A DNA stretch of 35,788 bases from Bdellovibrionales bacterium. GTDB lineage: Bacteria > Bdellovibrionota > FAC87 > UBA2466. The position numbers and the translations under genes are program-made. The stretch spans positions 1 through 35,788 of the forward strand of contig SXPJ01000033.1 in assembly GCA_005776395.1 (NCBI GenBank). The letters are read 5' to 3'. Below the pieces are notes generated by a model that saw nothing but the letters and a program-made list of their open reading frames with translations, made no database searches and had not been told where the DNA came from. Below, one piece after another: positions 20,365 to 24,493 of the stretch (within the stretch, counting starts at the first letter, position 1; every line of letters starts with the position of its first letter).

Positions 20365-21948
20365 ATGGCGATCTATGATGCATTTATGTTTTTTAACGAG
20401 TTTGATTTACTCGCTGTTCGTTTAGAAGAGCATGATCCCTTTGTAGATTATTTTATACTTATTCAAGCTGATCGCACCCATTCTGGAGAGCCCAAGGAAC
20501 TTCTGTTTTCTAAAACAGATCCCAGATTTTCTAAATATTTTGAGAAAATCATTGTGGTGAATGCAAATCTACAGGAAAGTCCAAAATCGGCCTGGGACAA
20601 TGAAGAGTTACAGCGCAAAGCCGTGTTTTCTGCTGCTAAGTTTGATCCTCAAGATGTTTTGTATCTGAGTGATGTAGATGAGATTGTCAGTCGCCACCAC
20701 TGGCCCTATCTGCTGAAGCGAATTGAGAAAGAAATGCTCATTGGGGTGTGGCTTAAAATGTACTACTATTTTTTAAACCTTGAAGTTCTTGGCTTCCCCT
20801 GGGCTATGGCAAAAATTATGAAAGCCAAAGTATTTCTAGAGAACAATATTTCGGTGAATCAAATAAGATGTTCCCCCTCTGCAGTTATGACCCCTTTTCC
20901 TTGTGGATGGCATTTTTCTTATCTTATGACAGTGGATCAGATTATCGAAAAAATCAAAGCTTACGGTCATCAGGAGAATAATAAGATAGAGTTTACAGAT
21001 CCTAAAGCTATTCAAAAAGCGATCGGCGAGAGAAAAGATCTTTTTGGAAGAGATATGGTTTTTAGAGCAAGTTCTTTCAATTCTACTTGGCCTAAAGCCA
21101 TGGTGAAGTCAGAAAAATGGCGTGATTTTATTCTCTCAGTTGGAGCGAAGGTTGTTTTAAGGGAGAAGGGGAGTGAAATTTTAAGTTTTGGGAAAGAGAG
21201 TCTTAAGATTATTGCAAAACCATTGCTAGCAAGATGGCGTAAAGCCGGCGGAGCTGTGGAAAGTCACAATGCTTTTGGGAGTCATCTCTTTGAACTTTTA
21301 ATTTCATCTCGACCTAAAGATCAAGAGGCCAAGGAGTGGCGAAAATTAATAGAGTTTTTTAGTTTTATTTTGCCAGAGATTGAGGGGAGGGGAACCGCTC
21401 GCCAGTGTGCTGAACTGTTTTTAAGAGTTATTTCATCGGTGAAGCCCCATTCAAAAATTGTGGAGCTAGGATCTGGAAAGGGGCGTTCTAGTGTTTTTGC
21501 TTCGCGAGCTGCTGCAGTAACCACATCACGCCTTTTTTGCGTTGATCTTTGGCAAGAGGATCTTGATGAAGGGCAATCTCATTCCACGAGGGAGCAAGCT
21601 CAATCAAGAGCCGTTTTTAAAGAGTTCAAAAAAAATATTACTCTTTATGGATGTGACAATGTGGAGGCTTATAAAGGAAAAAGCACTGAAGTGGCAGCTA
21701 AGTGGGCCCATGGCCCTATAGATTTTTTATTTATCGATGCAAGTCAGAACTATGAATCGGTCATGGAAGATTTAAAGGGCTGGATTCCGCATCTAAAGCC
21801 TGGCGGTATTGTTTGCGGCGATGGCTGGAATCTCGATGAATGCAAAGAGGTTAAAGGAAGCATTAGAGAAGCTTTTCAAGATTTTTTCAAATTAAACCTT
21901 CCTAATAGAGGTATCGTTGAGCGATTTTGGGCTCATCAGGTAAGCTGA
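20365..21948 (+). CDS. Fused GT17 glycosyltransferase and class I methyltransferase
   Basis: This 527-residue bifunctional protein has residues 1-270 matching glycosyltransferase family 17 (the family of beta-1,4-mannosyl-glycoprotein GlcNAc transferases). FNEFDLLAVRLEEHDPFVD, SKSAWDNEELQRKA-like spacing and the metal motif Asp103-Val-Asp105 in LYLSDVDEIV are diagnostic. Residues 345-527 form a class I SAM-dependent methyltransferase: motif I IVELGSGKGRS at about 365, then FCVDLWQEDLDEG, FLFIDASQNYESV and LKPGGIVCGDGW. The gene therefore makes one enzyme able to add a sugar and methylate the product, or with the methyltransferase acting on a related acceptor. It stands alone, and both halves look complete. 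Confidence 0.85.
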   Translation: MAIYDAFMFFNEFDLLAVRLEEHDPFVDYFILIQADRTHSGEPKELLFSKTDPRFSKYFEKIIVVNANLQESPKSAWDNEELQRKAVFSAAKFDPQDVLYLSDVDEIVSRHHWPYLLKRIEKEMLIGVWLKMYYYFLNLEVLGFPWAMAKIMKAKVFLENNISVNQIRCSPSAVMTPFPCGWHFSYLMTVDQIIEKIKAYGHQENNKIEFTDPKAIQKAIGERKDLFGRDMVFRASSFNSTWPKAMVKSEKWRDFILSVGAKVVLREKGSEILSFGKESLKIIAKPLLARWRKAGGAVESHNAFGSHLFELLISSRPKDQEAKEWRKLIEFFSFILPEIEGRGTARQCAELFLRVISSVKPHSKIVELGSGKGRSSVFASRAAAVTTSRLFCVDLWQEDLDEGQSHSTREQAQSRAVFKEFKKNITLYGCDNVEAYKGKSTEVAAKWAHGPIDFLFIDASQNYESVMEDLKGWIPHLKPGGIVCGDGWNLDECKEVKGSIREAFQDFFKLNLPNRGIVERFWAHQVS

Positions 21949-22309: not shown

Positions 22310-22441
22310 GTCCCAATATGCAATAATAGGGACTAAAATCCGTTTATAGGGACTTTATTAGTAATATAACTTGGTATTGGGACATATATAAAGCTATAAT
22401 AGATTATGTAGTTGTATAGGGACGATAATACCGTCCCAATA
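22310..22441. promoter_or_regulatory. Array of six TATWGGGAC operator-like repeats before the Fic gene
   Basis: Four direct copies, AATAGGGAC (22325-22333), TATAGGGAC (22345-22353), TATTGGGAC (22375-22383) and TATAGGGAC (22415-22423), are flanked by two inverted copies, GTCCCAATA at 22310-22318 and 22433-22441. The direct copies start 20, 30 and 40 bases apart, so they lie on one face of the helix. One lies between the promoter boxes and two near the start of transcription and the ribosome binding site. This is expected of an autoregulated repressor; the Fic protein itself carries a winged-helix domain. Confidence 0.75.
22371..22400 (+). promoter_or_regulatory. Promoter of the Fic gene
   Basis: TTGGTA (22371-22376) and a perfect TATAAT (22395-22400) are separated by 18 bases. 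One operator copy (22375-22383) overlaps the -35 box and spacer, and another (22415-22423) lies just after the predicted start site. Confidence 0.55.
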
Positions 22442-22460: not shown

Positions 22461-23855
22461 ATGGTGGCAAAAAAAAAGGCTAATCTTGAAGCCCTCGTTT
22501 TATTGCTTTTGAAGGAAAAGAAAAAGATCAGTGTGCCCGACGTCGCTCAAGCGGCCGGGATGTCGAAGTCAGATGAAGGCGATAGAAAAGCGATCCGCCG
22601 TGTGCTCATTAAGCTCGTGGAGCGCGGAATTCTTGAAGCACGTGGGGCCGCGCGCGCGCGTGTTTATGCTGCATTGACCATCGCTGCGGCCGAAGCGCCT
22701 AAATCGCAAGAAGGCTTGAAATTTTTCAAAGCCATTTTTCTCTCTCCAGAGAGCGAACGCCTTTTGAAATACGTTTCTCAATCACTCCAAGTCCGTGCGC
22801 CGGTTGGATACAACCTGGATTTCTTGTGTTCGTATGAACCGAATCAAACCTTCTATCTCTCCAAAGCTCAACGAGCGGAGCTTTTGAAAATGGGTATCGT
22901 CGAAAGCGCGGCTAGGCCCGCAGGCACTTATGCGCGAAACATTTTGAATCGGCTTTTAATCGACCTATCATGGAACTCGAGCCGCCTCGAGGGAAACACT
23001 TACTCTCTTTTAGAAACCAAGCGACTCATTGAACTCGGCGAAAGCGCATCCGGCAAGGATGCCTTCGAAGCGCAGATGATTTTGAACCACAAAGGAGCCA
23101 TCGAATACATCATCGAATCGGCTGTGGAAGAAAAAATCACATCCCATGAAGTATGCAGCATTCACGCGCTTCTCTCAGAAAACCTTTTAGGGGATCCAAG
23201 CGCCTCGGGACGTATTCGTCAGATCGCAGTGGGAGTTGGCGGCACGAATTATATGCCGCTCGAAAACCCACACATTCTCACGGAGTGCTTTCAAATCTTC
23301 ATCGAGAAACTTAACCTCATTGAAGACCCATTTGAGCAGTCCTTCTTTGCGTTAGTGCAGATCTCATACATGCAAGCCTTCGAGGACGTGAACAAACGAA
23401 CCGCGCGTCTTGTGGCTAATATCTCGCTAATTAAAAAGAATCTTCGGCCGCTTTCATTTGTGGATGTGGATAATGAAGCTTATGTCAAATCCCTTCTCGG
23501 AGTTTACGAGAAAAACGATGTAAGTCTATTCCGCGATCTTTACCTCTGGGCTTACACGCGATCGGCACAGCGCTATTCGGCGATTCAGCAGGCAATGGGA
23601 GAACTAAACCTGCTCAAGTTGAAATACCGCGCCGATATTCAAGAGATCATTCGCACCGTTATTCTTAAGAAGATCGTAGGCCCGCAGGTGGTTCACCACA
23701 TTCAGAGTCTTATAGAGGCGAAAAAACTTCTCGATGCTGACTCTGCGGAGTTATTTAAGCTAATAGAAATAGAGATCATCAGCCTTCATGACGGAAATAT
23801 TGCGCGGTTCAAAATTCGGCCTAGCGAATTTCAAGAGTGGAAGAGTTTACAGTGA
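22461..23855 (+). CDS. Fic-family protein with N-terminal winged helix and degenerate active site
   Basis: This 464-residue protein has an N-terminal winged-helix segment (about 10-75; VPDVAQAAGMSKSD, RRVLIKLVERGILE) and a Fic core at about 165-345. The self-inhibition motif [ST]xxxE[GN] is present as S173-SRLEG (Glu177). The catalytic loop reads MQAFEDVNKRTAR, so the histidine of HxFxxGNxR is Gln305 and the glycines are Val310 and Lys312; normal AMP transfer is unlikely. I recall related proteins that share this Q-x-F-E-D-x-N-K-R form, so it may be a subfamily with a different job, possibly gene control. GGAGG at 22452-22456 sets the start. Base composition is visibly more GC-rich than the flanks, suggesting acquisition. 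The operator array upstream suggests self-regulation. Confidence 0.85.
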   Translation: MVAKKKANLEALVLLLLKEKKKISVPDVAQAAGMSKSDEGDRKAIRRVLIKLVERGILEARGAARARVYAALTIAAAEAPKSQEGLKFFKAIFLSPESERLLKYVSQSLQVRAPVGYNLDFLCSYEPNQTFYLSKAQRAELLKMGIVESAARPAGTYARNILNRLLIDLSWNSSRLEGNTYSLLETKRLIELGESASGKDAFEAQMILNHKGAIEYIIESAVEEKITSHEVCSIHALLSENLLGDPSASGRIRQIAVGVGGTNYMPLENPHILTECFQIFIEKLNLIEDPFEQSFFALVQISYMQAFEDVNKRTARLVANISLIKKNLRPLSFVDVDNEAYVKSLLGVYEKNDVSLFRDLYLWAYTRSAQRYSAIQQAMGELNLLKLKYRADIQEIIRTVILKKIVGPQVVHHIQSLIEAKKLLDADSAELFKLIEIEIISLHDGNIARFKIRPSEFQEWKSLQ

Positions 23856-23996: not shown

Positions 23997-24148
23997 TTAA
24001 AAATACTAACCGCCCGGGACACGTTAGCCAAAGATAGAAACATTTCGAGTCTGAAATTGTGGAGTTTTTCTCAGTTTCATCCAAGATTGAGCGGAGATAA
24101 GAGTTTAAATTCGTTGGCGTTATTCACTTCTTTAATATTACTGCTATA

Positions 24149-24493
24149 ATGAAAAGCATGCGTGTCGTAGCGATTTTCATTCTAATGTTCATTGGATTTA
24201 ATACACTTCCTTTTAGTGCATTATTGGAACACGTACACGTAGATAGTAAAGAGGGGAGTCTTATTCTAGCTCAGCAAGATGATGGCTGCGCAGATGAAGA
24301 AAATTGCAATTGCCCCTGTAGTACTCAAGAAGGGGGAAGTTGCAAGAGTTGCGGTGTCGGAAATTGTATGGTTGCACTTCTTTCAACGGCAAGTATGGTT
24401 CCATCTTTTCAAGGTAAATTGACCCCAGAAGTTTCTGCTCTTACCATGGATTCGATTATTTCTTCTCCTATTACCCCCCCTCCAAAAGTCTAA
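24149..24493 (+). CDS. Small exported Cys-rich protein at the head of the metal-efflux operon (CzcI-like)
   Basis: This 114-residue protein has a signal peptide (VVAIFILMFIGFNTLPFSAL), then HVHV and a Cys cluster (CADEENCNCPC, CKSCGVGNC) that could bind soft or borderline metals, and a Pro-rich end (SSPITPPPKV). Small periplasmic proteins of this plan (CzcI and similar) often precede heavy-metal RND operons, and position plus composition suggest a similar sensing or buffering role. A TATAAT at 24145-24150 with TTCACT 16 bases upstream overlaps the first ATG; if it is the real promoter, transcription would begin at or next to the second ATG (24158), giving a leaderless start. Confidence 0.6.
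   Translation: MKSMRVVAIFILMFIGFNTLPFSALLEHVHVDSKEGSLILAQQDDGCADEENCNCPCSTQEGGSCKSCGVGNCMVALLSTASMVPSFQGKLTPEVSALTMDSIISSPITPPPKV

Follow-up and report, generated by a model that had tools for sequence, protein, structure and literature searches.

A winged-helix Fic protein with an altered active site and its putative operator array in a Bdellovibrionales bacterium

The Fic gene and its upstream array

The window, by which is meant the whole stretch of 35,788 nucleotides analyzed here (contig SXPJ01000033.1, positions 1 to 35,788, of Bdellovibrionales assembly GCA_005776395.1), carries a gene for a Fic protein of 464 amino acids (22461..23855, + strand) that is preceded by an array of short repeats (22310-22441). 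The gene stands alone between a glycosyltransferase-methyltransferase gene on its 5' side and a set of metal-efflux genes on its 3' side. The upstream neighbor is a single ORF (20365-21948) in which a GT17 glycosyltransferase domain is fused to a Methyltransf_24 domain. On the other side, a promoter-like sequence (TTCACT-16-TATAAT, with TG before the -10; 24123-24150) lies directly 5' of the ORF at 24149, which precedes a CusA/CzcA-type efflux gene. Elsewhere in the window, a domain model for a caspase (EACC1-associated) matches the segment 13884-15161 weakly, with a score below threshold.

The array described in the initial annotation proved to be real. It consists of five exact copies of TATWGGGAC and one copy with a single mismatch, AATAGGGAC, within 132 bp. 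In the 2.76 Mb of the window's own genome there are 33 exact copies outside the array, and at the genome-wide frequency only 0.0016 copies would be expected per 132 bp (the probability of at least five being ~8e-17). Four copies are direct, namely A2 (AATAGGGAC, 22325..22333), B1 (TATAGGGAC, 22345..22353), C1 (TATTGGGAC, 22375..22383), and D1 (TATAGGGAC, 22415..22423), all on the + strand, while two are inverted, A1 (TATTGGGAC, 22310..22318, - strand) and D2 (TATTGGGAC, 22433..22441, - strand), the latter convergent with D1. A predicted promoter sits inside the array; its -35-like hexamer TTGGTA (22371..22376, +) is separated by 18 bp from a -10 box, TATAAT (22395..22400, +). The overlap of one site with the -35 and spacer of a promoter with a perfect TATAAT, as had been annotated, was confirmed for C1, and D1 lies downstream of the predicted transcription start.

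The direct copies start 20, 30, and 40 bp apart, distances that were correctly measured at the outset and had been read as placing all sites on one helical face. That reading fails on phase arithmetic and on the layout seen in orthologues: at 10.5 bp per turn, the 90 bp separating the first and fourth direct copies equal 8.57 turns, so that the fourth is 154 degrees off the first.

Conservation of array geometry in orthologues

Close orthologues (76-88% protein identity) were recovered from other Bdellovibrionales/Oligoflexia metagenome assemblies, and seven orthologous promoters were aligned (alignment A3). The initial annotation had named the absence of an array from orthologues as evidence against its proposal; the array was found at the equivalent position in them, and distant relatives have arrays of their own. 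Relative to the start codon, the GGGAC sites of the orthologues lie at -151 (inverted), -132, -112 (both direct), -100 (inverted), -82, -41 (both direct), and -28 (inverted), with a TATAAT at about -65 that is invariant among the aligned sequences. Orthologues belonging to several families share this seven-site geometry, at fixed distances from both TATAAT and ATG. The first three positions correspond to A1 (conserved at about -151 in L031-L033), A2 (about -132), and B1 (about -112).

The window retains every one of these sites except that at -100, where GTAATATAA (B2, 22361..22369, - strand) stands in place of the GTCCCGATA or GTCCCAATA of the orthologues. This seventh, decayed half-site is inverted and falls between the third and fourth window copies, both of them direct, dividing their 30-bp gap into 12 + 18 bp. 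Because the window has lost it, the 20/30/40-bp spacing is partly a product of decay. Judged from the aligned promoters, the recurring units are inverted pairs, with A1/A2 diverging and B1/B2 and D1/D2 converging, and not a ladder of direct repeats.

The arrangement of sites also bears on the sign of regulation. It is improbable that the main function of the protein is to activate, upon a signal, its own promoter or defence genes lying downstream; four of the seven ancestral sites do lie upstream of the -35 and could serve as activator sites, but the others cover the -35 and spacer and the leader past the start, which are classical positions for repression, and the TATAAT is perfect. Site position is what leads us to infer repression rather than activation, with the reservation that sites farther upstream might serve activation.

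A class II Fic protein with glutamine in place of the catalytic histidine

The protein belongs to the Fic/DOC family (Pfam PF02661, 35.8 bits against a gathering cut-off of 24), and an AlphaFold2 model built on an alignment of 28 relatives has a mean pLDDT of 85. Residues 2-71 (22464..22673, +) are predicted, with pLDDT about 80, to form helices at 2-19, 25-31, and 39-54 followed by strands at 58-61 and 68-71, the helix-helix-helix-strand-strand order of a winged helix; the recognition helix, DRKAIRRVLIKL, contains Lys43. A Pfam Penicillinase_R match in this N-terminal region falls below its cut-off. Fold searches with the model matched FICD, Fic-1, SoFic, and CbFic2, with FICD and Fic-1 the best PDB entries.

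In FICD, a glutamate of the inhibitory helix and the Asn/Arg/Arg of the Fic motif hold or restrain the nucleotide, while the histidine is the catalytic residue. The window protein has the corresponding nucleotide-binding Asn and Arg residues and the inhibitory glutamate that define class II: the inhibitory-helix motif SSRLEGN (residues 173-179; 22977..22997, +) falls in conserved columns of alignments A1 and A2, and Glu177, Asn311, Arg313, and Arg316 are invariant in both. The histidine required by the AMP-transferase signature HxFx[D/E]GN[G/K]R is missing, however; the altered Fic motif (Q305 to R316; 23373..23408, +) reads QAFEDVNKR, with Gln305 in its place. The same replacement occurs in 56 of 56 distinct relatives, which were picked by their inhibitory-helix motif and not by the residue at this position. 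By motif match, the sequence is that of Fic/Doc clade D2 (Qx[F/Y]x[D/E][G/V]NKR), a group noted in silico without a function and usually single-domain (PMC4454073); its active-site signature equals that of the window protein, although its description includes neither a DNA-binding domain nor an operator. In class I toxin-antitoxin pairs of the VbhT/VbhA type, a neighboring antitoxin supplies the inhibitory helix; in the window protein this helix is present in cis, and no homologous flanking gene that might encode an antitoxin or partner was found among the orthologues.

CccR of Yersinia pseudotuberculosis is an HTH-Fic effector of a type VI secretion system (T6SS) that autorepresses through an inverted repeat (PMC9755527), and it offers a precedent for supposing that the array holds down a toxic protein and that the Gln form has kept the ability to modify a target, perhaps by Doc-like chemistry. 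A regulator acting only upon itself would need some output, the active-site frame besides the histidine is invariant, the NKR of the motif resembles Doc, PADLOC reports a weak SoFic similarity, and it has been argued that clade D2 proteins need not be catalytically dead (PMC4454073); some residual enzymatic role may exist. Nonetheless, we regard an autoregulated effector as unlikely, given that the histidine is replaced throughout the relatives, that a His-to-Ala change abolished both toxicity and AMPylation by CccR (PMC9755527), and that the orthologue flanks hold no conserved partner or antitoxin gene. A sensory role for the altered Fic domain of a DNA-binding regulator is the interpretation preferred here.

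Distribution of relatives and their arrays

Relatives were found in Bdellovibrionota, Acidobacteriota, alpha-, beta-, and gammaproteobacterial plasmids, and IMG/VR contigs. Within the phylum their occurrence is patchy, with 31 of 369 genomes passing 1e-50 in an alignment search, a count that includes shorter, more distant Gln-Fic proteins. The copy in the same genus is only 81% identical, and copies in other assemblies are closer (86-88%), which suggests that the family has spread by horizontal transfer.

Upstream arrays were detected (p < 0.05) at 42 of 56 relatives compared with 7 of 120 control ORFs (Fisher 3e-21). When one mismatch was allowed, arrays were scored at 43 of 56 relatives and at 4 of 20 canonical His-Fic genes (2e-5); about a quarter of the relatives lack a significant array by this simple statistic. 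The window's own array is missed by the exact 6-mer statistic (p 0.28) because the base following GGGAC varies, and it is detected by the one-mismatch 8-mer statistic.

In the 200 bp preceding each of two canonical His-Fic genes (L022 and L029) there are six to seven copies resembling TTCCGCCAT (p 0.005), and operator arrays may therefore also exist at some canonical Fic genes. A group of shorter Gln-type Fic proteins (about 350 amino acids; L006, L007, L101, L103, L104, and L107), with the motif QPFEDGNKR and an N-terminal HTH-like region, has upstream repeat motifs of its own, such as AATCGCATCAA and ATATGCACAT, and tandem direct repeats of GATATCCTCCC precede a divergent Gln-Fic gene at L098.

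Covariation of operator core and recognition helix

Across relatives the half-site core takes the forms GGGAC, AGGAC, GCGAC, GCGCAA, GGCGCA, and GGCGCG, commonly adjoining an A/T-rich tail. With operator classes assigned with the helices in view and ambiguous loci judged by eye (L061 was moved to GCGCAA; L064, L096, and L112 were left out), the residue at the position of Lys43 was Lys in 18 of 18 NGGAC relatives and Arg in 29 of 29 NCG relatives, which accounts for 47 of the 47 classified. A Tyr replacing Arg47 was seen in every relative with GCGCAA and in no others (8/8). When mapped onto a tree of just the Fic portion, operator class requires at least 13 changes against a mean of 29.6 for shuffled classes, indicating that it diversifies and yet is heritable. 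The best tree provided four pairs as independent contrasts, of which two sat on well-supported branches, and the two that were tested both went in the expected direction. These results are suggestive of joint change in operator core and recognition helix, the independent events being few and the sign test not significant.

Covariation of this kind speaks to whether the repeats are instead bound by some other protein or act as hairpins in a leader RNA. The inverted repeat formed by D1 and D2 lies in the predicted leader and could fold into a hairpin, but five of the seven sites fall outside the predicted transcript, the array has no Rfam match, and the repeat both varies in step with the HTH encoded next to it and moves with the Fic gene between genomes; we consider either alternative very improbable. 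Binding of the array by the winged helix of the Fic protein itself, the idea put forward in the initial annotation, is well supported, by comparison, through conserved arrays, the tracking of core and helix, and the AlphaFold2 winged helix.

A single putative target

Nearly all fetched loci have just one place where copies of the cognate core are densely clustered, 75-230 bp ahead of the start of the Fic gene. At L042 and L050 there is a further cluster of the short GCGAC core, which at L042 is located inside an ORF. A search of nine whole genomes (about 28 Mb) gave 15 matches to the palindrome ATNGGGACN{5,10}GTCCCNAT, all 15 of them at Fic promoters. Those GGGAC/GTCCC pairs inspected elsewhere in the window's genome form no arrays before genes; a wider regulon had been considered and was rejected, as the convergent pairs of C41 and C84 lie in coding-like sequence away from promoter arrays. 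From the distribution of matching sites, the one target of the putative regulator is its own transcription unit.

The array and gene as a mobile unit

Orthologous loci share homology from the array (about 22284) as far as the stop codon, the flanks being non-homologous. In these comparisons, array and gene behave as a discrete unit that moves horizontally. Flanking direct repeats were found at 8 of 52 units versus 3 of 124 control ORFs (Fisher 0.003). The 3' end of a tRNA gene is a typical integration site, and at L088 (364-2380 plus flanks) an 89-bp direct repeat takes in this part of a tRNA-Met gene, whose 3' end lies beside the Fic unit; the unit is apparently an integrated element of 2 kb that lacks an integrase. 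Other units lie between TrbI and TraC genes (L032) or adjoin a phage baseplate gene (L068).

Several further loci have repeats of other kinds. At L033, a 1611-bp direct repeat (99.6% identical), containing a whole gene, is found on both sides of the Fic unit, as would be expected after insertion of a circle by a single crossover. At L039 (2650-5658), a type III restriction (res) gene has its initial ~70 bp duplicated beyond the Fic unit with 87.5% identity, as if the unit had been inserted in front of res. At L041, consecutive genes on both sides of the Fic unit are set apart by a ~130-bp repeat that forms an imperfect palindrome, in a manner resembling a cassette array (about -392 to -261 before the start; +54, +1634, +3236, and +4200 after the stop); identification as an integron cassette (attC) was rejected, since by eye the repeat ends mismatch the RYYYAAC/GTTRRRY core.

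Association with defence genes

The window gene is solitary. In several relatives, defence genes lie after or beside the Fic gene, as seen in scans of proteins picked by hand at individual loci. The unit precedes SIR2-APAZ and pAgo genes (SPARSA) at L057 and L065, IetA/IetS (IetAS) at L059, and type III restriction genes at L039. On the Paracoccaceae plasmid pLA6, the gene order in the putative operon is Fic-SIR2-pAgo. A nuclease pAgo pair is convergent with the Fic gene at L043, and AbiLi lies upstream of it at L072. Within the wider Gln-Fic group, outside the 56 relatives, SngA/SngB (Shango) genes come after the unit at L110 and a type IV restriction gene lies upstream at L111.

Proposed mechanism and relation to known systems

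Taken together, we favor, with a probability of roughly three in four, the reading that the array is the operator of the following gene, which would encode a winged-helix autorepressor with an altered Fic domain as sensor, carried on a horizontally moving unit with a single target. The N-terminal winged helix, probably as a dimer, would bind inverted pairs of NATNGGGAC half-sites and thereby repress transcription from its own promoter, whose -35, spacer, transcription start, and leader these sites flank or overlap. A specific operator in the regulator's own promoter, as expected of winged-helix autorepressors, is indicated here by sequence comparison. The Fic domain, devoid of its catalytic histidine, would act mainly as a sensor of a ligand or stress, releasing the operator, and defence genes just downstream, where present, might be co-transcribed and so controlled by the regulator too.

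Autorepression by an HTH-Fic protein is already known from CccR, which likewise combines a class II Fic domain with an HTH and represses its own promoter via inverted sites near it. CccR, however, has a C-terminal HTH, an intact catalytic histidine, and only one pair of inverted sites, spaced 26 bp apart, as opposed to the N-terminal wHTH (residues 2-71), Gln305, and seven ancestral half-sites of the present system. CbFic2 of Coxiella burnetii has a wHTH and binds DNA (PMC10628234); like SoFic, it resembles the window protein in having a Fic domain with an inhibitory helix fused to a winged helix, but both possess the catalytic histidine, a C-terminal wHTH, and a DUF4172 N-terminal domain, and no operator array has been described for them (PMC10628234). 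As early as 2009, HTH domains fused to Fic were proposed as possible regulators of fic expression in a survey of Fido domains, which included no operator, Gln variant, or test (PMC2686095). RptR, a repressor heading a phage defence island (PMC12255303), shares the logic of a first-gene autorepressor and acts on several repeats overlapping the -10 of the defence operon, but it is an unrelated protein of 79 residues that uses TAGCTA sites and lacks a Fic domain. In the open-access literature searched, no paper on Gln-type HTH-Fic regulators was found, nor was the combination of N-terminal wHTH, Gln active site, diversifying multi-site operator, mobile unit, and placement with defence genes.

It is a more tentative proposition, to which we would give somewhat less than even odds, that the widespread His-to-Gln Fic class consists of dedicated transcription switches and not enzymes, i.e., nucleotide- or damage-sensing pseudo-Fic proteins with a fast-diversifying wHTH operator that spread horizontally, array and gene together, as plug-in controllers of defence operons. 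Research has treated Fic proteins almost exclusively as enzymes that transfer AMP and as toxins, and the arrays before most members, with their helix-linked cores, give the large Gln clade a direct and testable role as transcriptional autoregulators. The Gln-Fic relatives also constitute a natural series for reading winged-helix specificity, while the position of some of them ahead of SPARSA, Shango, IetAS, and type III restriction genes is suggestive of a controller of defence alongside the WYL (BrxR/CapW) and RptR regulators.
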